Source of the DNA: Chloroflexota bacterium | GTDB taxonomy: Bacteria; Chloroflexota; Ktedonobacteria; Ktedonobacterales; Ktedonobacteraceae | Length of the DNA stretch: 64,000 bases | Reading direction: 5' to 3' | Assembly: GCA_902812455.1 (NCBI GenBank) | Contig: CADDZH010000014.1 | Coordinates: forward strand, 1-64,000 | Shown: one piece after another, positions 21,944 through 56,391 of the stretch | Position numbering within the stretch: the first letter of the stretch is position 1 | Layout: each line of letters begins with the position of its first letter | Notes under the pieces: generated by a model | What the model was told of the DNA's origin: nothing | Seen by the model: the letters and a program-made list of their open reading frames with translations, nothing else | Database searches by the model: none | Program-made: the position numbers and the translations under genes

Positions 21944-21974
21944 GGATCTGTCAATATTTATTGACTGATAAAAA

Positions 21975-25307: not shown

Positions 25308-25334
25308 GGAGGGGCGCAATACGTTGCGCTCCTC
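25308..25334. repeat. Palindromic repeat, family C, between leuA and leuC
   Basis: GGAGGGGCGCAATACGTTGC followed by GCTCCTC. It lies 41 bp before the leuC start, and an open frame through it gives an artefactual longer leuC N-terminus. Confidence 0.7.
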
Positions 25335-25374
25335 TATTATCCCATTGCGCTTGATTCAGACGGAGACCCCAACT

Positions 25375-27422: not shown

Positions 27423-27436
27423 AAGGAGAATCAGCC

Positions 27437-28522
27437 GTGACCACAAACGTAGGGGCGCGATTCATCGCGCCCAGCATGGATATAGAACCTTACCAGCTTC
27501 TTGACCCCGAAGGCAACCTGGTCGGTCCAATGCCCGATCTCAGCGCAGATCGGCTGTTGTCACTTTATCGCTTTATGCACATGGGCAGGGCGTTCTCCAA
27601 CAAGATCATTGCCTTGCAGCGCCAGGGACGCGCAACCACCTTTGGCTCGCTCGAGGGGCAGGAGGCAACCGCTGTGGGACTGGCTGCTCCCATGCGGCCA
27701 GAGGACTGGCTCGCCACATCATACCGTGAAATTGCTTCATTGATGGTGCGGGGCATTCCCCTTCCCACGCTCATTTACTCCTTTCGCGGCTTCACCCCTC
27801 AGAACTATCCGCGAGAATCACGCACCTTACCCATCCAGATTGTTATCGGCACGCAGGTGATTCATGCGGTTGGGCTGGCCATGGCGGCAAAGATAGCAGG
27901 TGACCCGGTGGTGGCTGTGGCTGTCTGTGGAGATGGCGCGACTTCCGAGGGCGATTTCAACGAAGCCTTGAATTTTGCCGGGGTTTACCAGGCTCCCGTT
28001 GTCATTGTCGTACAGAACAACGGCTGGGCCATCAGCGTGCCGCGCCACAAACAGAGCGCCGCTCAGACGCTAGCCGCTCGGGGCACCGGCTTCGGTCTTC
28101 CTTCTATCCTGGTGGATGGCAACGACATTCTCGCCGTCTACGATGTGATGCAGCAGGCTATTGAACGTGCCCGCTCCGGTCAAGGGCCGGCACTGGTGGA
28201 GACGCTCACCTACCGCATGGGGGCGCATACCACAGCAGACGATCCCACGCGCTACCGCGATCCCGCCGAGCTGGAGGCATGGCAGGCAAAAGATCCGATC
28301 AAGCGCTTTCGCATCTTCCTTATGCAGCGCGGCCTGCTCACGGAGGAACAGGATCAGCAGTTGATAGCTGCTATCGAAGAAGAACTTAACGAGGCTGTGC
28401 GCGAGGCTGAGAGCATGCCGGCGATGGCCCCCGATAGCTTCTTCGACTACATGTTTGCCGAACTTCCACCGCGCTTGCAGGAGCAACGTAATGATCTACT
28501 GCGCTACACAGGTGGCCGATGA
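27437..28522 (+). CDS. pdhA: 2-oxoacid (pyruvate) dehydrogenase E1 alpha subunit
   Basis: 361 residues starting at GTG 27437, which has AAAGGAGA at good spacing. The thiamine-diphosphate motif is GDGATSEGDFNEALNFAGVY ... NN (Gly 165 onwards). RGFTPQNYPRE and YRMGAHTTADDPTRYRD are typical of E1 alpha. It joins E1 beta to decarboxylate a 2-oxoacid and acylate the E2 lipoyl group. Residues 5-12 (VGARFIAP) are encoded by a family C palindrome placed just after the start codon. Homology would be expected to begin around MDIEPYQLL. GTG is the only start with a good ribosome site, so the repeat is probably translated. Pyruvate versus branched-chain specificity cannot be decided here. Confidence 0.92.
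   Translation: MTTNVGARFIAPSMDIEPYQLLDPEGNLVGPMPDLSADRLLSLYRFMHMGRAFSNKIIALQRQGRATTFGSLEGQEATAVGLAAPMRPEDWLATSYREIASLMVRGIPLPTLIYSFRGFTPQNYPRESRTLPIQIVIGTQVIHAVGLAMAAKIAGDPVVAVAVCGDGATSEGDFNEALNFAGVYQAPVVIVVQNNGWAISVPRHKQSAAQTLAARGTGFGLPSILVDGNDILAVYDVMQQAIERARSGQGPALVETLTYRMGAHTTADDPTRYRDPAELEAWQAKDPIKRFRIFLMQRGLLTEEQDQQLIAAIEEELNEAVREAESMPAMAPDSFFDYMFAELPPRLQEQRNDLLRYTGGR
27449..27472. repeat. Family C palindrome inside the pdhA reading frame
   Basis: GTAGGGGCGCGATTCATCGC followed by GCCC. It is read as V-G-A-R-F-I-A-P near the N-terminus of PdhA, in the same frame as the related element in murF-alr. Confidence 0.8.
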
Positions 28523-28552
28523 TGATTTTTAACAACCAGGATCGGTAATATT

Positions 28553-28622
28553 TGTCATCCTGAGCGAAGCGAAGGATCTCTGCCGATTGGCAGCGGATGT
28601 TTCGCGTCGCTCAACATGACAT
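28553..28622. repeat. Palindromic repeat, family A copy 4
   Basis: Left arm TGTCATCCTGAGCGAAGCGA, right arm TTTCGCGTCGCTCAACATGA followed by CAT. It fills most of the 192-bp gap between pdhA and pdhB. Confidence 0.85.
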
Positions 28623-28714
28623 GTCCCAGACCGGTTTTCCCGATCTTGACGGTCAAATTTCATTATCGGCCACCAGAACTCGATCGTGCGATCACCATAA
28701 GAGGATGATACATT

Positions 28715-29692
28715 ATGCAAATGACGATGATTGAAGCTTTGAACAAGGCTCTGACCCAGGAACTTGAGCGCGACGAGCGCGTTGTAGTCTTTGGGCAGGA
28801 TATAGGTGTCAACGGCGGCGTGTTCCGCGTGACCGAGCACCTGCAAAAGAAATTTGGCGAGCGCCGCGTTTTCGATACGCCACTGGCAGAATCGGCCATC
28901 ATCGGCAGCGCAATCGGCATGTCGGTCTACGGCCTGCGCCCCATTGCTGAGATTCAGTTTGCAGGCTTCCTCTTTTTATGTATGAGCCAGTTGGTGACGC
29001 AGGCTGCACGTATGCGCTTCCGCAGCGCGGGAGCGTTCACCTGCCCTATGGTCGTGCGCGCACCTTATGGCGGCGGCGTGCGCACCCCCGAACTGCACTC
29101 CGATAGTCTCGAAGGCGTCTTTTTGCAAACGCCAGGTCTAAAAGTTGTCATACCATCTAATCCTCGCGATGCCAAAGGGTTGCTCGCCTCGGCAGTTGCC
29201 GATCCCGACCCCGTTCTCTTCCTGGAAAACATCAAGCTCTATCGCTCGTTCCGCCAGGAGACGCCCGAGGAATACTACACCATTCCGCTTGGCAAGGCAA
29301 ACGTAGTGCAGGAGGGAACAGATGTGAGCCTCTTTGCCTACGGTGCAATGGTACCTGTGGCATTGGAGGCGGCAAAACAGGTGCAGCAAGAAAACGGCAC
29401 AAGCGTAGAGGTCATCGACCTGCGCACAGTCTGGCCGCTGGATGAAGAGGCTATCGTCAACTCGGTGACAAAAACAGGGCGGGCTGTCGTTGTGCATGAA
29501 GCCCCTCGCGCAGGCGGGGTAGGAGCAGAAGTGACAGCCATTATCAACGATCACTGCCTCTATTCCCTGCTGGCTCCGGTTGGGCGCGTGACCGGCTACG
29601 ACACGCCGTTTCCTGTTCCTGGCGTCGAAGATTATTACGTCCCGAATGTGCCGAAGGTGCTTACGGCTCTCAAACAGGTTATGGAGTCATAG
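28715..29692 (+). CDS. pdhB: 2-oxoacid (pyruvate) dehydrogenase E1 beta subunit
   Basis: 325 residues after AAGAGGATGATACATT and ATG. Typical E1 beta features: VFGQDIGVNGGVFRVTEHLQ, FDTPLAESAIIGSAIGMSVY, HSDSLEGVFLQTPGLKVVIPSNPRDAKGLL (read in segments) and VIDLRTVWPLDEEAIVNSV. It binds the pyrimidine side of ThDP and forms the alpha2beta2 E1 with PdhA. The next gene (E2) starts 2 bp after its stop, so the two are translationally close. The 192-bp gap to pdhA is unusually long for this operon and holds a family A repeat. Confidence 0.96.
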   Translation: MQMTMIEALNKALTQELERDERVVVFGQDIGVNGGVFRVTEHLQKKFGERRVFDTPLAESAIIGSAIGMSVYGLRPIAEIQFAGFLFLCMSQLVTQAARMRFRSAGAFTCPMVVRAPYGGGVRTPELHSDSLEGVFLQTPGLKVVIPSNPRDAKGLLASAVADPDPVLFLENIKLYRSFRQETPEEYYTIPLGKANVVQEGTDVSLFAYGAMVPVALEAAKQVQQENGTSVEVIDLRTVWPLDEEAIVNSVTKTGRAVVVHEAPRAGGVGAEVTAIINDHCLYSLLAPVGRVTGYDTPFPVPGVEDYYVPNVPKVLTALKQVMES

Positions 29693-29694
29693 CT

Positions 29695-30987
29695 ATGTAC
29701 GAATTCAAACTAGCAGACCTCGGCGAGGGGATGCACGAGGCCGAGATAGCTGAATGGCTGGTAAAGGTAGGCGATACGCTCAAACTCGATCAGCCGATGG
29801 TCAAGGTCGAAACTGACAAGGCCCTTGTGGAGATACCTTCGCCTGTAGCCGGTCGTATCAGCGAGATTCGTGTCAACAGCGGGGAGAAAGCAAAAGTAGG
29901 CGACGTGCTGGCTGTGCTGGAGACACCTGCAGGCGGGAATGGTGCGGCGCAACAGAGAGCTACGGAGACAACCCCGCCGGCAGCGGCGGCACCATCTCCT
30001 ACACCGCCATCGCCGCCAGCGCAAAAGACAACACTGGCTGCGCCCACCTCGACAACCGCTACAAAATCGCGCGTGCTGGCTGCTCCCGCTGTGCGCAAGC
30101 TGGCATTCGAGCTGGGCGTCGATCTCGAAAAGGTTACTCCAACCGGCTACAACGGGCGCATCTCTCTCGAAGATGTGAGGGCCTACGCCGAACGCATGAA
30201 AGCTGAGCCTGCGCCCGCACCAACTCAGGCAGAACAACCTGCTCCTGCTGTTGAACAGGCACGCGAACAGCCTGTTCCAGCACCGCAAGGTGAACGCCAA
30301 CCCTTGACAGGCCTGCGCAAGCGCATTGCCGAACACATGGAGCGCTCATGGCGCACCGTTCCACACGCGGTCGCCTTTGATGAAGTGGATGGCGCTGCCT
30401 TGATAGCCCTGCGCCAGGCATTGAAACCCATCGCGGAGCAGCGCGGCGTTCGCCTGACCTATGTGCCGATCCTCGTTAAGCTGCTCATCCCGGTGCTCAA
30501 AGAATTCCCTATCTTCAATGCCAGCCTGGATGAAGAGAAACGTGAGATCGTCTACAAGCGCTCGTACCATATCGGCGTGGCTACCGACTCGCCCGAAGGC
30601 TTACTCGTCCCTGTCTTGCGCGATGCCGACCGCCTGACGCTGCTCCAGGTTGCGGGCAAGCTCGAAAAACTCATCGAGGGAGCTCGCCAGCGCACGCTCT
30701 CCCTTCCCGAACTGAGCGGCAGTACCTTCACCCTCAACAATGTTGGCAGTTTTGGCGGCAGTAGCGGCGTCCCCATCATCAATTATCCTGAAGTTGCCAT
30801 CCTTGCCGTTGGACGACTACAAGAAAAAGCCGTCGCCCAGAATGGCGCAGTCATGGTCAGGCCGGTGATGCCGCTCACCCTCTCCTTTGACCATCGCCTG
30901 ATCGATGGCACGGCGGCAGGCAAATTCCTGGCCCGTTTCAAAGAACTGGTCGAGAATCCCCAGCAACTGATGCTGGATATGGTTTAA
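29695..30987 (+). CDS. pdhC: Dihydrolipoyl acyltransferase (E2)
   Basis: 430 residues. There is one N-terminal lipoyl domain (residues 1-77) with the lipoylated Lys 42 in VETDKALVEIPSP, then an Ala/Pro/Thr-rich linker. A peripheral-subunit-binding domain lies near 125-160 (APAVRKLAFELGVDLEKV, then GRISLEDV), followed by a second linker. The catalytic domain from about 200 has SFDHRLIDGTAAGKFL with catalytic His 400. It transfers the acyl group from lipoyl to CoA and forms the complex core. The ribosome site GGAG lies inside the end of pdhB. A Uma2-like gene separates it from the E3 gene. Confidence 0.96.
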   Translation: MYEFKLADLGEGMHEAEIAEWLVKVGDTLKLDQPMVKVETDKALVEIPSPVAGRISEIRVNSGEKAKVGDVLAVLETPAGGNGAAQQRATETTPPAAAAPSPTPPSPPAQKTTLAAPTSTTATKSRVLAAPAVRKLAFELGVDLEKVTPTGYNGRISLEDVRAYAERMKAEPAPAPTQAEQPAPAVEQAREQPVPAPQGERQPLTGLRKRIAEHMERSWRTVPHAVAFDEVDGAALIALRQALKPIAEQRGVRLTYVPILVKLLIPVLKEFPIFNASLDEEKREIVYKRSYHIGVATDSPEGLLVPVLRDADRLTLLQVAGKLEKLIEGARQRTLSLPELSGSTFTLNNVGSFGGSSGVPIINYPEVAILAVGRLQEKAVAQNGAVMVRPVMPLTLSFDHRLIDGTAAGKFLARFKELVENPQQLMLDMV

Positions 30988-31113
30988 AATGGCCTGGCTT
31001 GTAGAGGCAGCGGAGCTATGGTATCATAGAGGTGTAATTTTTGAGATGAGGTGAGGGGTACAGCAATGGAGGTAAGCACCCGCGAAGACCAGAGGCAAGG
31101 AGGAACAACATAG

Positions 31114-31806
31114 ATGGCACAGCCGATGCGAGACGAGGTGGTGTACTACTACGATGTCCATCCCACCGAGGAGGACTTGATGGGGGAAGCGCCACCACAT
31201 GCGCAATTGGTGCACTATTTGATGGAGGTGCTCACCTGGTTGCTGCGCGAGCAGGTCTGCGCCATCTACGAGAACTGCAACTTTTACCAGTCACCAGATA
31301 TCTATGAGTATCCACTGGCCCCCGATATCGCCATCATTAAAGGCCCGAGTCAGCCAATCCGTCGTAGTTACCGGGTGCGAGTTGATGGGCCTGCGCCCCA
31401 GGTCGTGTTTGAGATTGCCTCTGATGAGACGTGGGAACGGGACCTGGAGGAGAAACCGGGCAAGTATGCCATAATGGGTGTGCAGGAGTACTACGCCTAT
31501 GATCCTTCTCAGCCCATGTTGTCTCCCAGTCGGAAGAGAGGGCGGCGCTTGTTTGGCTGGCAGCGCGATGCGGAGACTGGCTTCCTGCGCGAGGGAGCTC
31601 TAGGGCCGCTGGGGATGTGGAGTCCGCAGTTGGAGAGCTACCTAGTGCCCGATGGCAGCTTGCTGCGCCTCTATGATCGCTTTGGCCGCCCTCGCCGTAC
31701 CGAAGCCGAGGAAGTGGCTCGCATAGCTGAGGAAGCGACCCAACGTGCGAAAATACTGGAAGAAAAACTCCGCTCACTGGGTATAGACCCCGACCAGCCC
31801 CTATAA
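31114..31806 (+). CDS. Uma2-family (DUF820) putative restriction-endonuclease-fold protein
   Basis: 230 residues after AGGAGGAACAACATAG and ATG. It matches the Uma2 pattern: HPTEEDLMGEAPPHAQLVHY near the start, then a PD-(D/E)XK-like core with APDIAIIKGP (the P-D), VFEIASDETWERDLEEKPGKY (the E-x-x-S and a Lys) and MGVQEYYAYDP. The C-terminus is a coiled coil (AEEVARIAEEATQRAKILEEKL). Uma2 genes are expanded in Chloroflexota and Cyanobacteria, and their function is unknown. It sits between E2 and E3 of the dehydrogenase operon, 126 bp after the former and 13 bp before the latter, which suggests insertion into a standing operon. Confidence 0.88.
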   Translation: MAQPMRDEVVYYYDVHPTEEDLMGEAPPHAQLVHYLMEVLTWLLREQVCAIYENCNFYQSPDIYEYPLAPDIAIIKGPSQPIRRSYRVRVDGPAPQVVFEIASDETWERDLEEKPGKYAIMGVQEYYAYDPSQPMLSPSRKRGRRLFGWQRDAETGFLREGALGPLGMWSPQLESYLVPDGSLLRLYDRFGRPRRTEAEEVARIAEEATQRAKILEEKLRSLGIDPDQPL

Positions 31807-31819
31807 AAAGAGAATCAGC

Positions 31820-33196
31820 ATGGTTGTTGGAGACGTTACTACCGCCGTCGATGTGCTGGTGCTGGGCGCCGGACCCGGCGGCTATGTCGCAGCCATTCGC
31901 GCTGCTCAACAAGGGCGGCATGTCACGCTTGTTGACCTCGGCCCTCCCGGCGGCACCTGCTTGAAGCGCGGCTGCATCCCGCTCAAAGCGCTGCTTTCTG
32001 CCACTGAGCGCTACCAGCAAGCGCAGCCAGCAGAGCTAGCCTCGATGGGCATTGCCGCCGAAACCGTTACGTTCGATTGGCCACATATGCAGGCCTGGAA
32101 GCAGGGAATCGTCGATCGCCTGATTCAAGGAGTGCAGCGGCTCCTTTCTGGTAATCACATCGAATACGTACAGGGAACAGGCTGGTTCATCAATGCCCAG
32201 GAAGTGCGCGTCGAAGGTGAATATGGCTCGCACCGTTTCAAGTTTGAGCACTGTGTGCTCGCCGTTGGCGCCGATCCCGCTCCTCTGCCCAATCTCTCCT
32301 ATGACGGCAAAGAAGTATTGACACCCGAACAGGCGCTAGCGCTATCTGACCTACCACCAAACCTCAGTTTATTTGGCTCTGACTATATCGCGCTGGAACT
32401 GGCAACCATCTTCGCCAGGCTAGGCGTCAAAGTCAAACTCTTTTCTCCTGCTGAGCAGATACTTCCCGGCATCGATCCTGCGGCACTGCGGCTGGTACAG
32501 GCTGGTCTACGCAAGCTGGGCATCCAGGTAACAACAAAAGCTTCCGCAAAACACATTGATGATCGCCCGCTGGTCGTTTCCAACGGTGTGCGCCCGCATA
32601 CAAGCGAGCTGCACCTGGACAATGTTGGCATCCAGATCACCGAACACGGCAGCATCCTCGTCAATGCCATGCAACAAAGCAGCATCCCCCACATCTATGC
32701 TGTCGGCGATTGTACGATAGGCAGCACAAATGAACCTGCTTTAGCCAGCGCCGCTATCAAGCAGGGCAAGGTAGCGGCTGAAGCGCTGTGCGGCCAGCGT
32801 GTCCAGTTTGCTCCGCTCGTCACGCCAATGGTTGTACATACCACACCCGAACTGGCAACTGCTGGCTACTCGGCAGAGGAAGCGACGAAAGTAGGCTATA
32901 GCGTCGTCACCGGGCGATTCCCGCTAGCAGCTAACGGGCGTGCATTGACGCTGGGAAGCGATAATGGCCTGGCTCTGGTAATTGCCAATGCCGAGGATGG
33001 CATCGTGCTGGGCGCTACACTGGTAGGGCCACGCGCCGGTGATCTTATTGGCCAGATTGCTCTCGCCATCGAAATGGGTGCCACGCTCACCGATCTCTCC
33101 GAAATTCTCTATGCCCACCCCGGCCTCAGCGAGATGATCCTGGAAAGCGCCGAAAGCGCGCTAGGCAAAGTGATCCATATTATGGGAAAGAGCTAA
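31820..33196 (+). CDS. lpdA: Dihydrolipoyl dehydrogenase (E3)
   Basis: 458 residues. FAD-binding motif VLGAGPGGYVAAIRAAQ near residue 13, redox disulfide Cys 47/Cys 52 in GGTCLKRGCIPLKALL, NAD-binding region NLSLFGSDYIALELATIFARLG (a divergent second Rossmann motif with GSDYIALE), and C-terminal YAHPGLSEMILESAE with the catalytic His-Pro and Glu pair. It reoxidises dihydrolipoamide of E2 with NAD. Its ribosome site (AAAAAGAGAATCAGC) is weak. The second dinucleotide motif lacks the usual G-x-G-x-x-G (it reads F-G-S-D-Y-I), which deserves a check of cofactor binding. Confidence 0.93.
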   Translation: MVVGDVTTAVDVLVLGAGPGGYVAAIRAAQQGRHVTLVDLGPPGGTCLKRGCIPLKALLSATERYQQAQPAELASMGIAAETVTFDWPHMQAWKQGIVDRLIQGVQRLLSGNHIEYVQGTGWFINAQEVRVEGEYGSHRFKFEHCVLAVGADPAPLPNLSYDGKEVLTPEQALALSDLPPNLSLFGSDYIALELATIFARLGVKVKLFSPAEQILPGIDPAALRLVQAGLRKLGIQVTTKASAKHIDDRPLVVSNGVRPHTSELHLDNVGIQITEHGSILVNAMQQSSIPHIYAVGDCTIGSTNEPALASAAIKQGKVAAEALCGQRVQFAPLVTPMVVHTTPELATAGYSAEEATKVGYSVVTGRFPLAANGRALTLGSDNGLALVIANAEDGIVLGATLVGPRAGDLIGQIALAIEMGATLTDLSEILYAHPGLSEMILESAESALGKVIHIMGKS

Positions 33197-33368
33197 CTGA
33201 CCTGGACCTGTGCCAAATACTCTCAACACGCTATCAATGTACCTGGCCCAAGCGTGCTGCAGAGGAAATCATCAGGGTTCTCTCAATGAGGTAACCCTTG
33301 GAGTTACCGCAGATTGTGGGGGTCAGGAATATGAACAGGAGCATGAATAAGAAACAGGTAATCATATA

Positions 33369-34976
33369 ATGTCGAATCTATTAGCCCTCTATGCCGCCAG
33401 TCGCGATGCCCTCTTAGCACAGATCACTTCAACTCTCAAAAACGATGAGCGCTCCGTGGCAGCCTGGCTCACGGGCAGCTTCGGGCGCGGTGAGCAGGAC
33501 AATTATAGTGACCTTGACCTCAGGGTGGTCGTGGCAGATCAGTACAGTGAGACACTGTGTACTCGTCCCTGGCCGTATGGCGCTCGTACAACCACTGAGC
33601 GGCTAGCTTTCTTCAGCCAGTTTGGCAAGCCATCTGTGATTTACGATGCTCATGGCAACGCTCCCGAAGGTGGTAGCTTCACGTATGTTCTCTACCTGGA
33701 TACCGCGCTCAACGTTGACTGGATTCTGGTTCCAAAGGCATTAGCTCGGCGCGGGGAGAAGACCTTCCTGCTTTTTGATAAAGCCGGCATCCCAATGGAA
33801 GAGCCATCAGCGCCAGCAAGTAGAGAGCAGCGCGCCCAGGAAGCATCGGTTCAGATCGGCTTCTTCTGGCTGATGACGCCTGTCGCTATCAAATATATGC
33901 TTCGTAACGAGCCGGTCGCCTTTCAGGATTTTCTTGAAACGCTGCATGAAGCAGTGGAAACCATCAAAGGGCTGATCGCCGGTGAGCCTGTAGCATATCG
34001 TGGCAGCTCGTATGCCCCGCTATGCGTGACCCAGGGCGAGCGCATTGCCGCCGTCCGTAGCCTTTGCGAGACCGTGCAGCAACTCATGCCAGAGGTTGTA
34101 CAGATGGGCGGCTATATTCCTCCATCACCTATGCCCGTTGTGAATACCTGGCTGGCGATGGCCGGGCATCCTGAGCTACGAAAAGCATATGCCGCAAACC
34201 GCGAGGCCATGCTGGGGCGAATCGTGGAAACGCTGCAACAGGATGAACGTTTCACTGCTGCCTGGCTGGCCGGTAGTTATGCACGTGGTGAGCAAGATGA
34301 CCTCAGCGATCTCGATCTGAGAATCGTCGTAGCAGAGCCCTATATTGAGCAGTTCTGTGCCGTACCCTGGGAATCAGCCGTAGCAAAGACAACACCGGAG
34401 CGCCTGGCCTTTGTAAGCCAGTTCGGCAATCCTGGCATCGTCTGGGAATCGAAAAGCTGGGTAGCAGAGAACAGTTGCTTCATTCTCACACTCGACGAAC
34501 ATACCGGCCTGCATATCGATTGGGTATTTGTGCCGCAGGCGAATGCGCGGCAAGAGCGGGAATCTGTTGTACTGTTTGATAAGGCTGGCATTCCGGTAGA
34601 GCCTGCACCTGAGCCGGAGAGCCAGGAACAACGAGCGATTGCAGCCTCGGATAAAGTTGGCTTCTTCTGGATGATTGCCGCGAGCTGCATCAAATACTTG
34701 ATACGAAGTGACCTCAGCAGGTTCCACATCCTGCTCGACTGGCTGCACAATAGCCTGTATGAAGTGAAGAGCATCCTGGACGGCATACCGGAAGCATCTC
34801 TCCAGTACCATCGAGGAGCAAAGCTTGTATTAACACGCGAGGAGCAAATTGCCGCACTTCGCGATCTCTGCCACCGCATGCTAGCACTGATGCCCGAAGT
34901 GGTGCAACTCGGCGGCTATATCCCCGAATCGCCCATGATCGTTGTCGAAAAGAGACTGGCAATAGCCCGTGATTAA
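33369..34976 (+). CDS. Tandem-duplicated nucleotidyltransferase (two NTase domains fused)
   Basis: 535 residues made of two homologous halves about 266 residues apart. Half 1 has AAWLTGSFGRGEQDNYSDLD (Gly 36-Ser 37, Asp 48, Asp 50). Half 2 has AAWLAGSYARGEQDDLSDLD (Gly 302-Ser 303, Asp 314, Asp 316). Both keep the NTase G-S and D-x-D metal site, as well as a later Asp in DWILVPKA and DWVFVPQA. Each half ends in a helical domain (GFFWLMTPVAIKYMLR and GFFWMIAASCIKYLIR) with the same QMGGYIPPSPM / QLGGYIPESPM tail. The fold resembles aminoglycoside nucleotidyltransferases, which add AMP to drug hydroxyls. The substrate is unknown. It stands alone, convergent with the next gene. Confidence 0.85.
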   Translation: MSNLLALYAASRDALLAQITSTLKNDERSVAAWLTGSFGRGEQDNYSDLDLRVVVADQYSETLCTRPWPYGARTTTERLAFFSQFGKPSVIYDAHGNAPEGGSFTYVLYLDTALNVDWILVPKALARRGEKTFLLFDKAGIPMEEPSAPASREQRAQEASVQIGFFWLMTPVAIKYMLRNEPVAFQDFLETLHEAVETIKGLIAGEPVAYRGSSYAPLCVTQGERIAAVRSLCETVQQLMPEVVQMGGYIPPSPMPVVNTWLAMAGHPELRKAYAANREAMLGRIVETLQQDERFTAAWLAGSYARGEQDDLSDLDLRIVVAEPYIEQFCAVPWESAVAKTTPERLAFVSQFGNPGIVWESKSWVAENSCFILTLDEHTGLHIDWVFVPQANARQERESVVLFDKAGIPVEPAPEPESQEQRAIAASDKVGFFWMIAASCIKYLIRSDLSRFHILLDWLHNSLYEVKSILDGIPEASLQYHRGAKLVLTREEQIAALRDLCHRMLALMPEVVQLGGYIPESPMIVVEKRLAIARD

Positions 34977-34978
34977 AG

Positions 34979-35776: not shown

Positions 35777-35826
35777 ATCTACCCTCCTGCATATTTGGTG
35801 TAAATGATGGGCCGTCTCCCAGGTTG

Positions 35827-36972: not shown

Positions 36973-37036
36973 CTTCGTTCCTTTCAATCCACTCAACGTC
37001 TGGATGAGCAGCATACTCGTGTTCAGCGCTTACCGC

Positions 37037-37597
37037 TTACTCACCGCCCGCACCGGCTTTCGCCCACGGGACCCAATCGAGCGCCTCATCCGGGATGCCG
37101 TGCTGTCCGAGAAAGAGGCTCAGTTGGGCCGCATGTTCCTGCACGTGGCGCATGTTGTACAACTGGAGCTCGAAAAAGCTTATGGACGTTCCTCCGGGCC
37201 AGGGGAAAGTGAACTGTTGATGCGCTTTCTCGTCTGACAACTCAGTAATCGTTGCCTGGCACTTCTTGCGCAGGTGCAGCAGATAAGCATGCAGCTCTTC
37301 CCTGGTATAGGGCCGTTCGAGAAGGGCACCTGCCGGGTCAAGCTCAGCCCGGGTGAAGGGCGGAGGGGGAACGAATTCTTCTTCACGTGAGCCTGTAAGA
37401 TACAAGTCGAGCCAGAAGAGGCAGTGATAGGTGATATACCAGAATGCTGCGAATTCTGGTGGCAGAGAGGGGTCTGAGCGATTGCCCCAGAGGCGCTCTC
37501 TCCACAGCGAGGCGGGGCAGGCCAGCAGAGCGTTTTCAAGCATATCGATGGCCGCGCCGAACTGCTGCCAGAGGGCAGTTTTCCATAAGGAATCCAT
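37037..37597 (-). CDS. DinB-family four-helix metal-binding protein
   Basis: 186 residues after TTGGAGGTATACAC and ATG. The DinB/YfiT metal triad is present: His 58 in WYITYHCLFWLD and the His pair of MRHVQEHAAQL near residue 150. Length and spacing fit the DinB superfamily, whose members include thiol-dependent S-transferases and DNA-damage-induced proteins of unknown activity. It lies between the AlkZ-like gene and a dienelactone hydrolase, all on the minus strand, consistent with a damage or xenobiotic response. The substrate is unknown. Confidence 0.85.
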   Translation of the reverse strand: MDSLWKTALWQQFGAAIDMLENALLACPASLWRERLWGNRSDPSLPPEFAAFWYITYHCLFWLDLYLTGSREEEFVPPPPFTRAELDPAGALLERPYTREELHAYLLHLRKKCQATITELSDEKAHQQFTFPWPGGTSISFFELQLYNMRHVQEHAAQLSLFLGQHGIPDEALDWVPWAKAGAGGE

Positions 37598-37677
37598 GTG
37601 TATACCTCCAAGTGTAATAATGATTGACCGGTTTGTTCGAGCAGATCTCGCAGCGACACATTCTCTAGCGAGAGCGC

Positions 37678-38328
37678 TTAATCAAGCCGCTCGTGCAAAA
37701 ACTGGATGGTGCGCTGCCAGGCCAGGCGAGCAGCCTGGGCATCATACTCCGGGCGATTCTCCTCGAAAAACCAGTGGTGCGTTCCTGGATACAGAAAGAA
37801 TGTGATTTGCCTGCCAGGGGAGCTGATAGCTTCCTCGAATTGACGAACCTGCTCGACCGGTTCAAAATCGTCATGCTCGGCAAAATGACCTAGAATATCG
37901 GCCTGCGCCTGGACCCTTTCGGGTGCCGTGGTTCCATAGAAGGTAACAATAGCAGCCATGTGGTCCTTCAATCCCAGCGCCCAGAAGCCCCCTAACGAGA
38001 ACCCGACTACACCAAGAGCCTTTCCACGCCTGCCCGGCTGGTTAAACAAGTAGTCAATGGACGCGGCAATATCCTGGGAAGTTTGCTCACTCTGTATCAG
38101 TTCTGAGGCAAACTGGTCGGCCTCATCGATTGAGGTGGTGGTCTTTCCGTGATAGAGGTCGGGAGCAAGAGCGATGAAGCCCTCTTGCGCGAGACGGTCG
38201 CAGACCTGTTTGAAGAAATCGTTGAGACCCCACCATGCGTGCAGGACCAGCACACCTGGTCCACTACCAGTCTCGGGAACGGCCAGATAGCTGCTAACCG
38301 TTCTCTCATCAACTTGAAATTCTATCAT
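37678..38328 (-). CDS. Dienelactone hydrolase-family alpha/beta hydrolase
   Basis: 216 residues after TAAGGAGAGCAAT and ATG. GVLVLHAWWGLNDFFKQVCD near residue 30 and the FIALAPDLYHGKTT segment are typical of the DLH family. The nucleophile elbow reads GFSLGG (Ser) rather than the Cys-containing GFCxGG of classical dienelactone hydrolase. The acid and His follow in FAEHDDFEP and YPGTHHWFFEE. Probable carboxylic-ester or lactone hydrolase, cytosolic. Diverges from the ArsR-DUF2087 gene. Confidence 0.9.
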   Translation of the reverse strand: MIEFQVDERTVSSYLAVPETGSGPGVLVLHAWWGLNDFFKQVCDRLAQEGFIALAPDLYHGKTTTSIDEADQFASELIQSEQTSQDIAASIDYLFNQPGRRGKALGVVGFSLGGFWALGLKDHMAAIVTFYGTTAPERVQAQADILGHFAEHDDFEPVEQVRQFEEAISSPGRQITFFLYPGTHHWFFEENRPEYDAQAARLAWQRTIQFLHERLD

Positions 38329-38465
38329 ATTGCTCTCCTTAACAACTCAAGAAACGCTGTGCTTCAAGCAGTATAGCGCAGATGTTCTGTTCTGTATACC
38401 CTAACTTTCTTCCTGTTGCCTGGATATTCGGAAATAAGGCTTGCCCTGTGAGTGCCATCTTGGAT

Positions 38466-38587
38466 TGTCATGCTGAGCGAGTGAGCCGTAGCCCTGAACG
38501 CGCGTGAAGGGGAAGCATCCGCTGCCTCAAGACAGAGATCCTTCGCGGAGTTTCCCCTGAGCGAAGCGAATGGGCTCAGGATGCCAT
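38466..38587. repeat. Palindromic repeat, family A copy 5 (long form)
   Basis: TGTCATGCTGAGCGAGTGAG at the left; GAGATCCTTCGCGGAG and CTGAGCGAAGCGAATGGGCT with CAGGATGCCAT at the right. It carries an extra CGCGTGAAGGGGAAGCATCC segment, also present in copies 2 and 3 in variant form. Confidence 0.75.
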
Positions 38588-38641
38588 GCTTGGCACCCTT
38601 TGCTAAAGCGTAGCAGCACCTCTCGCGGTTGTCTTGATCTC

Positions 38642-38697
38642 TTGACAAATTTAGTCTTCTTCGATATGTTTCTAATTAGGTAGAAATCTACGTAGAT
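38642..38697 (+). promoter_or_regulatory. Sigma-A promoter and palindromic operator for the ArsR-type gene
   Basis: TTGACA at 38642-38647 and TATGTT at 38665-38670 are 17 bp apart. Just after the -10 box, ATCTACGTAGAT at 38686-38697 is a perfect 12-bp palindrome, well placed for autorepression by the regulator encoded 34 bp downstream. Confidence 0.75.
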
Positions 38698-38730
38698 CTT
38701 GGTCTCGGTATGAGGGGGGGTGAAAGAATC

Positions 38731-39306
38731 ATGCCTGAGGAAGACTTTCAAACATTGCTACAATTCTTTAAAGCCCTGGCCGATGAGAACCGGCTCAAAT
38801 TGCTCGGTATCCTGGCCAATGGAGAAAAGAGCGTCGAGGAGCTAGCAGCGCTGCTAGAGTTGAGGGCGCCGACGGTGTCGCATCACCTGGCAAAGTTGCG
38901 AGAGCTTGACCTTGTGGGTATGCGTCCGGAGGGAAATACACACATCTACTGGCTCAATGCCGAGGCTCTGCGGAACACCAGCAAAGGTCTGCTCTCTTCT
39001 GAGAAAATGGCCTCGCTGGTCGATGGCGTGGAGGGTGATGCCTGGGAACGCAAAGTGCTGAAAGATTTCTTTGAAGGTACGCGCCTGAAGGAGATTCCGG
39101 CCAGCCGCAAGAAGCGCTCGGTTATTATCAAGTGGCTGGCGAACCAGTTCGAGCCGGGTGTTCTTTACAAAGAATCCCAGGTGAACGAGATTCTCGAGCG
39201 CTACCATCCCGATACGGCCTTCCTGCGTCGCGAGTTGATCGCCGAGAAACTCATGCAGCGCGAGAACGGCATGTACTGGCGAGCCTCGATACCATTGCTC
39301 AGGTGA
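38731..39306 (+). CDS. ArsR-family HTH regulator fused to DUF2087
   Basis: 191 residues from the ATG at 38731 (GGGGTGAAAGAATC upstream; ATG at 38710 is an alternative). Residues about 5-90 are an ArsR winged helix: FFKALADENRLKLLGILANG, then APTVSHHLAKLRELDLV. No metal-binding cysteines are seen, so it is not a classical metal sensor. The C-terminal part (KVLKDFFEGTRLKEIPASRK, then YKESQVNEILERYHPDTAFL) fits DUF2087, a domain often attached to such regulators. It is preceded by a sigma-A promoter and a palindrome, suggesting autoregulation. Its stop overlaps a short open frame described separately. Confidence 0.88.
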   Translation: MPEEDFQTLLQFFKALADENRLKLLGILANGEKSVEELAALLELRAPTVSHHLAKLRELDLVGMRPEGNTHIYWLNAEALRNTSKGLLSSEKMASLVDGVEGDAWERKVLKDFFEGTRLKEIPASRKKRSVIIKWLANQFEPGVLYKESQVNEILERYHPDTAFLRRELIAEKLMQRENGMYWRASIPLLR

Positions 39307-39440
39307 CAGGCGAATATGGCTACCTGGAAGCGATCGGTGAGACAGCCCATACTATGGCGGCAAAGCTGCGTGCGCTCTGGCCTCTAGAAGCAGGCGAGAT
39401 GCAGTATTACCCGGCGTTTCAAGGAAATACAGAGGCTTGA
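39303..39440 (+). pseudogene. Short coding-like remnant overlapping the ArsR-DUF2087 stop
   Basis: A GTG at 39303 overlaps the TGA of the regulator and opens 45 codons (TGEYGYLEAIGETAHTMAAK, then a tail ending YYPAFQGNTEA). Composition looks coding, and the frame reads sensibly even a little upstream (SLDTIAQV), so it may be the C-terminal remnant of a lost gene or a frameshifted extension. It stops 5 bp before the Mop gene on the other strand. No family is recognised. Confidence 0.35.
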
Positions 39441-39445
39441 TCGGC

Positions 39446-39655
39446 TTATTCCTTCCCGATCATCACCTCGGTGGACTTAATGATCGCAATCACATCGTCC
39501 CCGGTCTTCAGGTTCAGAGCCTCGGCTGAACTCAGCGTGATGGCTGAAACGATCTCCTGCCCGTCCGGCAGTTCGACCACCACTTCGGCCATTACGCTGC
39601 CCTGCTTGACCGATTTGACTTTGCCCCTCAACTGGTTGCGTGCGCTCATCTTCAT
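39446..39655 (-). CDS. Mop/TOBE-domain molybdate-binding protein
   Basis: 69 residues forming a single Mop domain: SARNQLRGKVKSVKQGSVMA, then EVVVELPDGQEIVSAITLSS and the ending DDVIAIIKSTEVMIGKE. These molbindin-like proteins oligomerise and bind molybdate or tungstate in the cytosol. The start ATGA overlaps the stop of the HEAT-repeat gene by 4 bp, so the two are translated together. No modABC genes are nearby. Confidence 0.9.
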   Translation of the reverse strand: MKMSARNQLRGKVKSVKQGSVMAEVVVELPDGQEIVSAITLSSAEALNLKTGDDVIAIIKSTEVMIGKE

Positions 39656-40341
39656 AGGAGTTCACGTCCTTTCGTCACATTTGCTTGTAAATCTGATTCC
39701 AGATCCTTGAACTGTCCCACATATTGTACCACCACCTCTGCCACCTTTCTCCTTTTCTCATCCCCCAGCCACGCTTCCAGCACCGGTCTGACTTGCTCCG
39801 GCTTGCGGCGTGCCAGGTTGCGCATGGCAGAGGCGGCGGCCCGCCAGACAAAGCGCCGATCATCGGCAGCCAGCTTCCCCAGGATGGGCAGTGCAGCCTC
39901 GATATATGTTGCGCCGCTAGCAGCAGAGAAGACCATGGCCACATTCCAGCGCACCTGCTCATCCTCTTGATCCGCCCATTGCTCCAATCGCCTCAACGTC
40001 AAATCTGGATAATAGCGCAGTAGTCCATCGCCAATCGCAAAAGGGCCAAGATTTTTACGCACGTATACGCTGCGATCGCTCATCAGCGGCTCTATGAGAT
40101 CAAGAAACTTCTCGCCCCAGCCAGGTTTGCGCGCTTTGGCCGCCACCTTCATGCCTACCACTACGGCCCGGCGCACATTCTCTGAAGGATGATGTACCCA
40201 TTCCAGGCACCTGGCATATATTTCATCGAAGTCTGTCACAAGCAGTTCACTAAGCAAGACTGCCGCACGCTCGCGCACTTCCCAATCAGCATCATCGGCC
40301 ATTTTTAGAAAAACGGTGATGACATCTTCTCTCTCATCCAT
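39652..40341 (-). CDS. HEAT-repeat protein
   Basis: 229 residues composed of about six HEAT-like helix pairs: DADWEVRERAAVLLSELL, HPSENVRRAVVVGMKVAA, SDRSVYVRKNLGPFAIGD, DQEDEQVRWNVAMVFSAA and DDRRFVWRAAASAMRNLA show the D-x-x-x-x-V-R-x-x-A spacing. This resembles the DNA-alkylation-repair (AlkD-like) HEAT proteins, but the catalytic residues cannot be verified. Translationally coupled to the Mop protein through ATGA. Probably a protein-protein or DNA-binding scaffold. Confidence 0.8.
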   Translation of the reverse strand: MDEREDVITVFLKMADDADWEVRERAAVLLSELLVTDFDEIYARCLEWVHHPSENVRRAVVVGMKVAAKARKPGWGEKFLDLIEPLMSDRSVYVRKNLGPFAIGDGLLRYYPDLTLRRLEQWADQEDEQVRWNVAMVFSAASGATYIEAALPILGKLAADDRRFVWRAAASAMRNLARRKPEQVRPVLEAWLGDEKRRKVAEVVVQYVGQFKDLESDLQANVTKGRELL

Positions 40342-40377
40342 AATGTCATATGCTCAGAGCACATTCACCTGGTTGAA

Positions 40378-40827
40378 TTAGCTGGCAGGTTGGTAATCAC
40401 CCAAGTTGCGCACCCAGGGAAGCCTCCCTTGTAATGTATTTAAGAGGCGCGCATCCGCTGTCCAATACTCGCAGTTTTTGCGCTCCGCAAAAGCAAGGTA
40501 ATGGGCATCATAGGCAGCAGGCAATGAAAACTGCTGGGCGAATCTTACTGCTCTTATACTGTGAGCATACTCATATGAAGCATCTAGCCTGACAGCATTT
40601 AGAAGCACATAGGTAAAAAGCTGCTCTGCTTCATCAGCATAAATGTTACCGCGACGAAGGCGCTGGTAGAGTGCATTTGCCAACTCATAAGCGAGCAGGA
40701 TGGGAGCAAGTATAACCACATCATCAAAGACCCACTGGGTCAATAGTGCGATCGCTTTTTCAGAATCTACCTCTTCAATAATCCACTTGATAACAATGCT
40801 TGCATCTACAACTACAGTCTTGTTCAT
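40378..40827 (-). CDS. PIN-domain VapC-like toxin
   Basis: 149 residues with the PIN acidic residues: Asp 8 in VVVDASIVIKW, Glu in AYELANALYQRL, Asp in AYDAHYLAFAE and Asp in WTADARLLNTL. PIN toxins are Mg-dependent ribonucleases that cut tRNA or rRNA when released from their antitoxin. The gene starts 12 bp after the antitoxin-like gene on the same strand, the usual VapBC order. Confidence 0.88.
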   Translation of the reverse strand: MNKTVVVDASIVIKWIIEEVDSEKAIALLTQWVFDDVVILAPILLAYELANALYQRLRRGNIYADEAEQLFTYVLLNAVRLDASYEYAHSIRAVRFAQQFSLPAAYDAHYLAFAERKNCEYWTADARLLNTLQGRLPWVRNLGDYQPAS

Positions 40828-40839
40828 ATGCAGTCCTGT

Positions 40840-41361
40840 TCATAAATCTGCCAGATATTGAGAACGCTCTTCGCGCATCTGCCTGATAATTTCGGTAGAA
40901 TCATCAAGGACTTGACCAGGATGATTTTTCTTAAACTGCTCCCGTAACTCAAGGAGTTTTTCTAATGCCTCGCGAGTCATAGGAGTGCGTTCCTGTTGAA
41001 GTGCGCTGGTACCAGCAGATATAGTTTGTTCTAATTCCTTATCGCGTTCTTCACGGACCTGATGCAGCGTTTCGACAGAATCATACGTTTCATTGGGATG
41101 CCTGCGCATAATCTCATCCCTTGTCCGCAGCAAATCTTCTACCGCCTCTGGATTAAGTCCATGTCGTCGCTCTACCAGACTTGCCTCCGAGGGAACGGCT
41201 TTTTCAAGAATTTCTCCGACATACTCATAGACTGAGAGATCTTTTTGTGCAGCAGCCATCTTGATACGCCGGCGAAGCTCAGGACTTATATCGATCATGA
41301 GCCGCGAGCGCTTTCTAGAAGTCCGGGAATTATCATCTTCATAAGGTTGCCGTACTGCCAT
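40840..41361 (-). CDS. Antitoxin-like ribbon-helix-helix protein with duplicated C-terminal modules
   Basis: 173 residues after AAAAAGAGGTGAAACG and ATG, far longer than a standard VapB (about 80). Residues 18-55 (KRSRLMIDISPELRRRIKMA, then DLSVYEYVGEILEKAV) form an RHH DNA-binding motif. The C-terminal part holds two repeats of about 45 residues: VEDLLRTRDEIMRRHPNETY with DSVETLHQVREERDKEL, and LEKLLELREQFKKNHPGQVL with DSTEIIRQMREERSQYL. The repeats could be two toxin-wrapping arms. It is followed directly by the PIN toxin gene. Confidence 0.75.
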   Translation of the reverse strand: MAVRQPYEDDNSRTSRKRSRLMIDISPELRRRIKMAAAQKDLSVYEYVGEILEKAVPSEASLVERRHGLNPEAVEDLLRTRDEIMRRHPNETYDSVETLHQVREERDKELEQTISAGTSALQQERTPMTREALEKLLELREQFKKNHPGQVLDDSTEIIRQMREERSQYLADL

Positions 41362-41463
41362 CGTTTCACCTCTTTTTCATCATTTCACTTCGTTCTTCTT
41401 TAGAAAGAAACGCCGAACGGACTACGCAACCAATTATATGCTAATGGCGACAAGGATACAAGC

Positions 41464-44136
41464 TCAGTCCACCCTGGGCACGCGAGCCAGAATAGCTGAG
41501 ACCACCTCGTAGTTGCTGGTGCCCAGGCGGCGGGCCACCTCTTCGGCGCTCAGCACCGCGTTCCCTTGCCGTCCAATCAACACCACTTCATCACCTACCC
41601 GCGTTTGAGGGATGTGCGTGACATCGATCATGCACTGATCCATGCAGACGCGACCCAGAATTGGCGCTTCCTGCCCATGGATCAAGACCGTTCCCCAGTT
41701 GTATGGCCCTCGCCTGAATCCATCGGCGTAGCCCACCGGCAACGTCGCCACCAGCGTTGGCCGCTCCGTCACGTACTGGCAGCCATAACTGATACACTCT
41801 CCGGCCGGCACCAGCTTCACCTGCGCCACCTGCGTCTTGAAGGAGAGGGCAGGCCGGAATCCTTCCGGCAAAGGCAACTCCGGTGATGGATCGAGTCCAT
41901 AGAGCGCAATGCCTGGCCGCACCATGTCAAAATGCGCTTCTGGGAGCGTGAGCAGCGCCGCGCTGTTGGCCGCGTGCACCAGAGGAGGGCGCAGACCCTG
42001 CTGGTCAAGCGCATGCAACACCCACTGGAAGCGCTCAAGCTGCAGCCGCACATGTGTTTGATCTACAGTATCGGCCATCGCAAAATGGGTAAAGATGCCC
42101 TCGAATTGCAGCCCTGGCAGCGCTACAATCTCGCGCGCCAGCGCAATCACTTCCTCAACCTGCTCTGCCCGTATGCCGAGTCGCCCCATACCTGTATCGA
42201 CCTTGACATGGACATTGACAGCTTGCCCGAGGGCCTGCGCCGCTCGCGAAAGCGCCTGCGCTGCCTCGATAGAATAGAGCGTCACAGTCAGGCCCAGCCG
42301 CACAGCTTCACGCATCTGCCATGCCGGAACATAGCCAAAAACAAGGATAGGAGCGCTTACACCTGCTTCGCGTAACGGCGTCGCCTCGCTCACAGTTGCC
42401 ACACCCAGCATACTCGCTCCGTTGTGCAAGACGGTTCGCGCTACCTTCACAGCGCCATGCCCGTAAGCATCGGCCTTCAGACTGGCCAGTACGCGCACCT
42501 CCGGCCCCACAATACCTTTGATCAGCCGTGTATTGTTGGCTATTGCGCTCAGGTCGATTTCGACCCATGTTGGTCGTTCGGGCCGCATGACAACGATCTG
42601 CTTCCAGCCCGGTGTCTGCCTCACCAGTTGCTCCGGCGCCTGTGCGGGCTGCGCCATGAGCATCTCTGTCACCCGCTCCATGCGCATCTCCTCAGAGCCT
42701 TTGATGAGTATTGTGGCAGCCGGTACTCCCTCTGGCGATTTCACAGCCAGCGCTAGCGTCTCAACCAGTTGGCGGGCTACCTGAGCTGCATCTTCATGCG
42801 TTGCAGTGGTAATAATCCGTTCTGACGCAAGTCCGGCCCTGCGAGCCGATTCCGCAATCAAATCGGCTCGCTCTCCTCGCGTGATCAGGTAATCGACGCA
42901 CGAAGCTACTTCCAGCCCAACCAGGCGATGAGCTTCCTCCTCGTAATCGCCCAGGCGCAGCATATCGCCCAGGACCGCTATGCGACCGCCTGTGGGAAGG
43001 GCTTTCAGTGTCTCCAATCCCGCGATCATCGAAGCCGGCGTCGCATTATGGGTATCGTCAAGCAGCATCGTACCACCTATACCTGGAAGCGGGTTGAGCC
43101 TGCCCGGCAGGGGTTTCACGTTCTCCAGAGCGCGCTGTATCTCTCCTGTATGCAAGCCACAATATCTACCTACTATGTACGCAGCCAGCATCGTCGAAAC
43201 ATGATGCGCCCCCAACAAATGAGAGAAGAGATATGTAGGAGCCTGATTTATCACGCCCTCGCTCACGCCCTCAACCAGTGAATCGACCTGAGATGATGTG
43301 ATGTCAATGGTCGAGGATGAGGGCGCATTAAATTGCGCTCCTACGCCATCCCATGTGACCTGCACGTCCTTTGCCCTCGAAGGGAAAAACGGGGTGATGG
43401 GGGCGCTAATGGACTCAATAAATTGCGGCCCTATATCATCGCCATTGGCAATGGCCATGCCATCTTCGGGAAGGCTCACCAGCAGCATAAGCAGTTCTTC
43501 CGCCAATCGCTCGAGGCTGCCGAAATATTGCAATTGGGCCGGGCTGATGTTGGTAAGGACGCCAATGCGCGGGCGCGTGATTTGACAAAGATCGCGAATT
43601 TCACCCGGGTGATCGCAACTCAGCTCCAGCACAGCATATTCATGGCGTTCTTCCAGGCGACCGAGTGAAAGTGGTATACCAAGCAGGTCGTTGTAGTTCT
43701 GCCAGCTACGAAAGGTAGCGAAAGTGCCGGAAAGCACCGAGGCAATGCCCTCTTTTGTGCTGGTCTTGCCCGTGCTGCCGGTAACGGCAATTACCGTGGG
43801 ATGCCAGCGCCCCAGGATGTAGCGGGCATAGTGCTGTAAAGCGATGCGGGTATCGGGTACAATAATCGTAGCGACGCCCGATCGCGCCAAAATTGCCCTC
43901 GTCTCTTCAGCCAGCGCGTTCATTACTCGCGCCTCGACCAGCAAACCCGTTGCTCCACGACCGGCTGCATCCAGCAGGTAATCATGTCCATCACCATGCT
44001 CACCGCGCACCGCGACAAACAGTTCTCCTGGGATCAACTGGCGCGTATCCTGGTTAAACGTATCAAAATGGGTCTGTTTGCCTGGAAATGTAAGAACGCC
44101 TTGCGTGGCCTCAAGCAAGTGATCGAGATATATCAT
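41464..44136 (-). CDS. MurF-alanine racemase fusion protein
   Basis: 890 residues from the ATG at 44136 (MIYLDHLLEATQG). A longer frame passes through a hairpin and is not favoured. Residues 1-460 are UDP-MurNAc-tripeptide:D-Ala-D-Ala ligase (MurF), with the ATP loop TGSTGKTSTKEG near residue 115, LLDDTHNATPASM and AVLGDML. Residues about 530-890 are alanine racemase: the PLP Lys lies in ASLKADAYGHGA near 553, then VKVDTGMGRLGIR, HAANSAALL, ISYGCQY with the catalytic Tyr, and GRVCMDQCMIDV. The fusion makes D-Ala and adds D-Ala-D-Ala in one polypeptide. Family C palindromes at 43321-43434 are translated in the MurF middle domain. MurF-Alr fusions are known in Bacteroidota. Confidence 0.93.
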   Translation of the reverse strand: MIYLDHLLEATQGVLTFPGKQTHFDTFNQDTRQLIPGELFVAVRGEHGDGHDYLLDAAGRGATGLLVEARVMNALAEETRAILARSGVATIIVPDTRIALQHYARYILGRWHPTVIAVTGSTGKTSTKEGIASVLSGTFATFRSWQNYNDLLGIPLSLGRLEERHEYAVLELSCDHPGEIRDLCQITRPRIGVLTNISPAQLQYFGSLERLAEELLMLLVSLPEDGMAIANGDDIGPQFIESISAPITPFFPSRAKDVQVTWDGVGAQFNAPSSSTIDITSSQVDSLVEGVSEGVINQAPTYLFSHLLGAHHVSTMLAAYIVGRYCGLHTGEIQRALENVKPLPGRLNPLPGIGGTMLLDDTHNATPASMIAGLETLKALPTGGRIAVLGDMLRLGDYEEEAHRLVGLEVASCVDYLITRGERADLIAESARRAGLASERIITTATHEDAAQVARQLVETLALAVKSPEGVPAATILIKGSEEMRMERVTEMLMAQPAQAPEQLVRQTPGWKQIVVMRPERPTWVEIDLSAIANNTRLIKGIVGPEVRVLASLKADAYGHGAVKVARTVLHNGASMLGVATVSEATPLREAGVSAPILVFGYVPAWQMREAVRLGLTVTLYSIEAAQALSRAAQALGQAVNVHVKVDTGMGRLGIRAEQVEEVIALAREIVALPGLQFEGIFTHFAMADTVDQTHVRLQLERFQWVLHALDQQGLRPPLVHAANSAALLTLPEAHFDMVRPGIALYGLDPSPELPLPEGFRPALSFKTQVAQVKLVPAGECISYGCQYVTERPTLVATLPVGYADGFRRGPYNWGTVLIHGQEAPILGRVCMDQCMIDVTHIPQTRVGDEVVLIGRQGNAVLSAEEVARRLGTSNYEVVSAILARVPRVD
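43321..43434. repeat. Two family C palindromes inside the murF part
   Basis: 43321-43344 (minus strand GTAGGAGCGCAATTTAATGC, GCCC) reads V-G-A-Q-F-N-A-P. 43399-43434 is a longer degenerate copy that reads I-G-P-Q-F-I, then AP after an insertion. Both use the same frame relative to the palindrome as the pdhA copy. Confidence 0.6.
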
Positions 44137-56360: not shown

Positions 56361-56391
56361 GGGCGCGATAAATCGCGCCCCTACTGTTTTT
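56355..56391 (+). terminator. dnaJ terminator made by a family C palindrome
   Basis: CAGTAGGGGCGCGAT and its perfect reverse complement form a 15-bp stem with a tiny loop (14 bp plus a 4-nt loop in practice), then TTTTT. It includes the dnaJ stop codon TAG. On the minus strand there is no T-run, so it acts for the dnaJ side. Confidence 0.85.

Follow-up and report, generated by a model that had tools for sequence, protein, structure and literature searches.

The window analysed here is a 64,000-nucleotide stretch from a member of the Ktedonobacteraceae (Chloroflexota; assembly GCA_902812455.1, contig CADDZH010000014.1, positions 1 to 64,000), which carries a short palindromic repeat inside two genes, pdhA and the fusion gene murF-alr, as well as at the ends of further open reading frames (ORFs) (Table 1). 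Based on our data, this repeat is best described as a GTAG-tagged repetitive extragenic palindromic (REP) element, which resembles a REPIN (REP doublet forming a hairpin) when two copies are paired, and the copies inside genes appear to be translated together with their host protein. The 24-nt consensus GTAGGRGCGCRATNNATYGCGCCC combines GTAG with a hairpin and amounts to eight codons. Counted on both strands, with a complete palindrome scored in each direction, it matches the window five times without a mismatch, six times at ≤1, nine times at ≤3 and eleven times at ≤4 mismatches, compared to means of 0, 0, 0 and 0.017 in 60 dinucleotide shuffles and to zero matches at ≤1 mismatch in a reversed control. 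The palindrome family is real and far beyond chance. That the similarity stems from chance or from low-complexity, GC-rich coding sequence is hardly conceivable: such an origin would fit the loose pattern GGGGCGC-N8-GCGCCCC, which lacks GTAG and the centre, found 11 matches in the window versus a mean of 7.95 (not above chance) and was noisy in the relatives G018 and G019, but it fits neither the counts for the 24-nt consensus, which was adopted in place of that pattern, nor the absence of the element from orthologues of both genes.

Table 1. The repeat and its host genes in the window, followed by the copies at other ORFs.
Feature	Position	Strand	Remarks
pdhA (pyruvate dehydrogenase E1 alpha), 361 aa	27437..28522	+	PF00676 matched by the protein and its homologues
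AAGGAG ribosome site and GTG start of pdhA	27423..27439	+	upstream of the REP; position kept in orthologues
REP copy in pdhA	27449..27472	+	GTAGGGGCGCGATTCATCGCGCCC, 24 nt, eight codons (VGARFIAP), same orientation, codon-aligned with GTA
murF-alr fusion gene, 904 aa	41464..44178	-	matches Mur_ligase and Ala_racemase (Pfam)
REPIN-like inverted REP pair, 110 nt	43235..43344	-	in frame, VGAQFNAP...EGVINQAPT
Pair arm 1, REP with 1 mismatch	43321..43344	-	GTAGGAGCGCAATTTAATGCGCCC, same orientation as gene, offset 0
Pair arm 2, REP with 3 mismatches	43235..43258	+	opposite to gene, offset 2, EGVINQAPT
Probable degenerate REP, 4 mismatches	43411..43434	-	offset 0, IGPQFIES
Complete 28-nt palindrome	9885..9912	.	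minus-strand GTAG is the stop codon of ORF 9909-10388 (-)
Complete 28-nt palindrome	56357..56384	.	GTAG is the stop codon of ORF 55212-56360 (+)
Diverged palindrome	25308..25335	.	at the start of ORF 25306-26784

The architecture of the element is that of a GTAG-tagged REP (a class that also admits GTRG and the like), with a GTAG tetranucleotide left unpaired at one end, an adjacent short GC-rich stem-loop (8-bp stem, 4-nt loop, z -5.6) and dispersed, mostly intergenic copies. As many copies in relatives stop at GCGCCC and do not continue into CTAC, the unit is probably the 24 nt of GTAG plus hairpin, and the pdhA copy, which as a single-strand DNA hairpin reaches -11.1 kcal/mol (z -5.6), need not be truncated. 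Within the order, 6 of 47 genomes contain the exact pattern, with up to 23 matches on both strands, and within the phylum 75 of 400 do. The relatives analysed are the five denoted here as G001, G014, G018, G019 and G047 (L numbers denote sequence stretches); G031, with exact matches and a different centre, stands outside this set. Singles as well as inverted pairs occur; in G047 and G001, the two starts of a pair are about 38-52 bp from each other. In the copies of G018 and G047, GTAG is commonly preceded by a pyrimidine, from which we draw no conclusion on insertion beside an already present GTAG.

In pdhA the palindrome lies in frame, just as the earlier note had reported. The N-terminus of the protein reads VTTN-VGARFIAP-SMDIEPYQ, whereas 16 close Ktedonobacterales orthologues (out of 23 loci) begin with V-T-I-Q-Q-I-D-P-G-M-V-x-Y/F-Q or similar; in 16 of 16 the REP is absent and the upstream ribosome site and start are present. 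Among the matches listed, VGARFIAP or a near form, preceded by ATN, occupies the same place in 10 of 119 PdhA homologues. Alternatively, the copy could be untranslated, the real start being the ATG at 27476 (MDIEPY) and the palindrome a leader hairpin. This ATG stands 3 nt behind the element and was picked as the start by our codon-score gene caller, a Met follows within a few residues of the element in 4 of the 10 carrier homologues, and many N-terminal cases are described as possible mis-annotations of starts in the accessible part of the 2013 survey of GTAG repeats (Di Nocera et al., 2013; PMC3733652). Nevertheless, the conserved upstream ribosome site and start, the lack of a visible ribosome site just before 27476 and the six of ten carriers in which the stretch from the element to the conserved YQ contains no Met make this start quite unlikely. 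The choice of 27476 is judged to be a weakness of the caller, yet it counts against a translated element.

The copy at arm 1 of murF-alr also holds as first noted, and it is joined by an arm 2 that the earlier note had missed. The two inverted REPs with their short spacer have outward GTAG ends, are diverged and fold as one long hairpin (z -5.6). Since the arms are read in different frames, the claim of the earlier note that all copies share one fixed frame fails within its own example; the relatives use three combinations of orientation and frame. All six aligned orthologues (from 12 loci tried) lack the insert, so that for both MurF-Alr and PdhA the proposed comparison came out as expected of an insertion: orthologues without the repeat are also without the peptide. 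The insert lies in a loop from QVTW to SHLL; many homologues have a short loop here, others a filled one. Using strict strings, the arm-1 peptide was found in 9 of 119 homologues among the matches listed, always in this loop, and the arm-2 peptide in the loop of 6 of 119, five of which have both arms; GRDKSRPY-type strings occur in 3 and GDREGRP-type strings in 14 of the 119, anywhere in the protein. Strict counts such as these replace loose peptide expressions (15, 24 and 9 of 120; 25 of 120), which both missed and over-counted cases. The several peptide types in MurF homologues imply that different frames and another REP family make use of the loop. GDREGRPY stands in the loop of the homologues P0159, P0168, P0169, P0192 and others, and in our own reading its source may be the GTAGGGGCGACCCTCGCGGTCGCCC family. 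In the predicted MurF-Alr structure, residues 284-304 of 897, within the pair-encoded stretch, have a pLDDT (predicted local distance difference test) <50.

For the longer third copy, given as 43399-43434 and considered less certain, the likeness is probably real, as only 0.017 matches at ≤4 mismatches are expected per shuffled window. Redrawn to 43411-43434, it is no clean insert, because a stretch of similar length is present at this position in the six aligned orthologues. We regard it as a probable old, degenerate REP.

To extend the view beyond the window, 140 stretches around copies were taken from the five relatives. They were picked for few mismatches and therefore represent a sample, in which genes were called by a simple codon model. 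Of 176 sites, 114 are intergenic, even though 76-82% of the sampled DNA was called coding; 29 lie within called genes, 14 over gene ends and 19 solely in the longest possible ORF. Pfam-supported hosts comprise i) in G018 a FAD/Oxidored_FMN protein, PheT, CarA, UvrA, MutL, a chlorite-dismutase/Rieske fusion, a UvrD with an intein match and a PolA-type exonuclease, and ii) in G019 LeuRS, RecG, CheA (two copies), HemA and SMC; iii) hosts in G001, G014 and G047 are a GNAT-like protein (match barely above the cut-off), a NuoE-like protein, a glycosyltransferase and a FAA hydrolase. The in-frame insertion into unrelated genes known from the Rickettsia palindromic elements (RPE) is therefore found here as well. 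In the G018 UvrD-like helicase (L197:323-3673, minus strand), the REP stands between the two helicase halves and, given the intein match, may lie in an intein.

The frames of these copies are non-random. Counted as independent events, so that five GNAT copies (three in L204, one each in L214 and L241) are taken as one, there are 22 supported intragenic copies in six genomes. All nine in the orientation of the gene use offset 0 (codon GTA or GTG), and copies in the opposite orientation use offset 2 nine times (GAMNRAPT type) and offset 0 four times (GRDESRPY type). This count omits the window's degenerate MurF copy, the 10 and 9 sites found in the longest ORF only and 6 of the 29 gene-internal sites, which lack support from a family or from orthologues (L216, L236 twice, L238, L255 and L269, with frames opposite 1, opposite 1 twice, opposite 0, same 2 and same 0); the same-orientation site at offset 2 is a GTAT-headed copy in a 47-aa ORF. 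The tally envisaged by the earlier note, made here on the sample from relatives, gave mostly intergenic copies and a frame preference, but not a single frame. Its argument that one frame of the element is closed by TAG is borne out insofar as offset 2 in the same orientation hits TAG and GTAG-headed copies supply the stop codon of the incoming gene in 11 of 105 cases; in opposite offset 1, the centre often supplies a TGA or TAA. Most of the frame pattern, though not all of it, is accounted for by the avoidance of stops. Peptide chemistry was considered for the missing frame and dropped, as same-orientation offset 1 would give about the same peptide as the opposite offset 2, which is in use. 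The periods of tandem arrays, 21 and 42 in genes and 20 (three), 21, 27 and 45 outside of them, hint, on a small number of cases, at frame selection.

With regard to position in the protein, all 19 copies tested, which come from 17 proteins and include the two murF-alr arms, fall outside the best Pfam stretches, which were the only ones used, with a chance of about 2e-10 by coverage. SMC was set aside, as its Pfam match extends over almost the full length of the protein, and the 19 do not include the degenerate MurF copy. Repair and replication proteins make up 6 of 13 hosts in G018 and G019 versus 2 of 40 neighbouring genes (one-sided p 0.0016; 0.004 with FtsK counted). This excess persists against the 28 controls with a family (6/13 vs 2/28, p 0.007; 0.018 with FtsK as repair) and without SMC (5/13 vs 2/40, p 0.007). 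As the controls (neighbours of at least 380 aa) were shorter on average and 12 of the 40 were without a family at the stricter cut-off, and the hosts were all Pfam-supported, an over-representation of repair and replication genes as hosts is probable, not proven.

Comparison with relatives of individual hosts revealed different stages of such insertions. In CarA of G018, QGAINCAPT is absent in 15 of 15 usable relatives (17 fetched), one of them 83% identical. The VGARLIAP stretch of LeuRS in G019 is absent in four of five relatives covering the site, with gaps of 28 residues in three and 22 in the fourth; the fifth (73% identical) has a shorter, different stretch. UvrA of G018 was not upheld as a clean insert. 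The GNAT-like gene carries VGAQFIAPS once in G014, once in G001 and three times in tandem (42-nt period) in G047. Exact VGAQFIAP is found in 10 and two or three near copies in 5 of the 120 GNAT homologues listed (22 relatives were compared, one of them uncounted), and others contain graded variants (VGGQLMAPN, AEAQITAPG and so on). These patterns are good evidence that copies are inherited and that the same linkers have been colonised repeatedly.

A further copy and other repeats are present as well. The window's diverged palindrome at 25308-25335 is probably in the leader of ORF 25306-26784, presumably a leuC-like gene, as an in-frame ATG at 25375 is the likelier start. A second palindromic family, CCTGGCCCCCACAAGGGAGGCCA, occurs in the window at 21971-21997, 51167-51229, 57410-57519 (copies at 57414 and 57461, 47 nt apart), 13734-13797 and 63291-63319, and a third repeat family on GTCATCCTGAGCGAAGCGAAGGATCTC at 6834-6922, 13863-13974, 23715-23796, 28551-28603 and 38465-38577. 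Composites of 40 nt at 10455-10494 and 13699-13738 seem to be fusions of one half of this REP with another palindrome (GCCGATAAATCGGC...GGGCGCGATAAATCGGCCCCTAC). In G018, REPs in L171, L173, L184, L185 and in the PheT gene of L174 are followed by tandem arrays (20-21 nt) that end in CATCGCGCCC, each array with a spacer of its own; the PheT unit is 21 nt and reads GAMATEK. In G019 (L249-L308), variant copies have GTAT or GTAC heads, often after a CGATCCTT-like stretch, and a further palindrome, GGCGGACAGGAATGTCCGCCCCAC, is located near several of them and in frame in LeuRS as ALADRNVRPT.

The element does not stand alone among known repeats. The earlier note had likened it to the Rickettsia RPE. 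The likeness holds for palindromes read in frame in unrelated genes and does not extend to membership of that group: the element here works like the Rickettsia in-frame elements and fails the tag test. RPE-1 is longer than the element here. As far as the accessible part of the 2013 survey goes, R. conorii RPE sequences end in CGTC, in contrast to the GTAG tag found here, and RPE-1 is also called longer there (Di Nocera et al., 2013). Copies here serve as stop codons in addition, a difference that is drawn from descriptions. The same portion of that survey already describes GTAG repeats in Chloroflexi, so that the phenomenon is not new to the phylum as the earlier note had supposed. It mentions copies inside ORFs, dimers or groups encoding 20-30 residues, the TAG of the element as stop and many repair genes. 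Our element shares with these GTAG REPs the terminal GTAG, the GC-rich stem-loop, singles and inverted pairs, TAG as stop, copies in ORFs, dimers encoding 20-30 residues, repair genes and the presence in Chloroflexi, and differs in the Ktedonobacterales stem GGGCGCGA/TCGCGCCC with its 4-nt loop; one of the 24 families of the survey may be its kin. Compared to the portion available, our data add the peptide across sets of homologues, a decay series and tandem growth in genes. Inverted REP pairs are the hallmark of REPINs in the corresponding part of their description (Bertels and Rainey, 2011; PMC3116915). The enterobacterial RU and ERIC-like sequences, as far as their report is accessible, are likewise small mobile repeats with open frames in genes, read as peptides, but with units of 103-168 bp that resemble miniature inverted-repeat transposable elements (PMC2759123). 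Within the partly accessible literature searched, we found no more specific earlier report on Ktedonobacter REPs or on RAYT (REP-associated tyrosine transposase) and REP in Chloroflexi. The intragenic GTAG REPs are an unusually clear, not an unprecedented, case of mobile DNA within proteins.

Taken together, the repeat is very probably a GTAG REP/REPIN family of the Ktedonobacterales, i.e. small non-autonomous mobile DNA whose survivors inside genes are translated and tolerated in linkers. A RAYT-type enzyme would spread the hairpins, and most insertions into genes would be lost, the harmful ones being removed by selection. Survivors would be those that keep the frame owing to the 24-nt unit, sit in a stop-free orientation and frame and are placed outside folded domains, in linkers or at ends. 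On translation, a single copy would add eight harmless residues (VGARFIAP or, read from the opposite strand, GAINRAPT) and an inverted pair about 30 residues or more, with a nearly neutral effect. Once inserted, copies would be inherited, drift and sometimes multiply in tandem; a copy arriving close to the end of a gene with its TAG in frame would become the stop codon of that gene. Translation inside genes is well supported by frame, position and comparison with homologues.

Several observations weigh against parts of this explanation. For the enzyme, the window yielded no RAYT-like gene. Of three ORFs of relatives that fit the RAYT motif, one (L159, G001) has a copy of the family about 190 bp off, together with different hairpins of its own, and a fourth, recognised by eye (L167), has no family copy within 700 bp. 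With respect to frames, offset 1 in the same orientation is open and remains unused (0/9), with a chance of 0.002 if both open frames were equal. The MurF insert is not a clean addition, with some native loop seemingly lost, and the predicted MurF-Alr model contains other low-confidence stretches (mean pLDDT 73.8, predicted template modelling score 0.58). The linker rule was drawn from best stretches with SMC excluded, and the degenerate MurF copy lies inside the Mur_ligase_M match. Translation, moreover, is read here from sequence. The PdhA peptide, finally, is kept better than its flank and beyond what simple drift would predict: among 11 carriers including the window, the mean pairwise identity is 93% for the eight residues, 63% for the next six and 85% for the remainder. 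On a quick tree (43 of 113 branches open), these carriers fall inside one 48-row group and are scattered in it, with five changes, of which starred branches force four. This could be accounted for by one insertion followed by exchange or loss as well as by repeated insertion.

Regarding the enzyme, a RAYT-like gene of another genome, G008 (L143), is flanked on both sides by the different GTAG REP family GTAGGGGCGACCCTCGCGGTCGCCC. PF01797 matches were rejected as RAYT candidates, since most of the inspected sequences look IS200-type by their motifs; their counts are consequently uninformative on RAYTs.

The conservation and scatter of the PdhA peptide, the several REP types in the same MurF loop and the tandem copies in the GNAT linker would also be expected if the peptide or the hairpin were a selected part of the host gene, kept or reacquired as a control of translation at the pdhA start or as a useful linker. 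We consider this unlikely, given that the GNAT-family peptide grades into many variants and that many unrelated host proteins carry the element. The GNAT REP of G014 is identical to two of the three copies in G047 (0 of 24 changes, about 3 expected from 12.3% over the gene), which is a weak sign of constraint, and the third G047 copy has three changes. A related and somewhat speculative idea, to which we give a small chance, is that the VGARFIAP cassette of PdhA and the REPIN cassettes of the MurF loop are no longer passive and are kept or exchanged between lineages as a unit, because the hairpin beside the start codon tunes translation or the peptide serves as a linker module. If so, REPs would continually give rise to new protein segments on which selection acts.

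For the mobile REP family that we favour, the excess of insertions in repair genes, remarked on in 2013 in the accessible part of the survey, probably recurs here in another phylum (Di Nocera et al., 2013). In addition, empty sites as well as fresh, decaying and tandem copies are found at the same places in core genes of the Ktedonobacterales, which makes the question whether such insertions are junk or raw material for proteins testable by counting changes.

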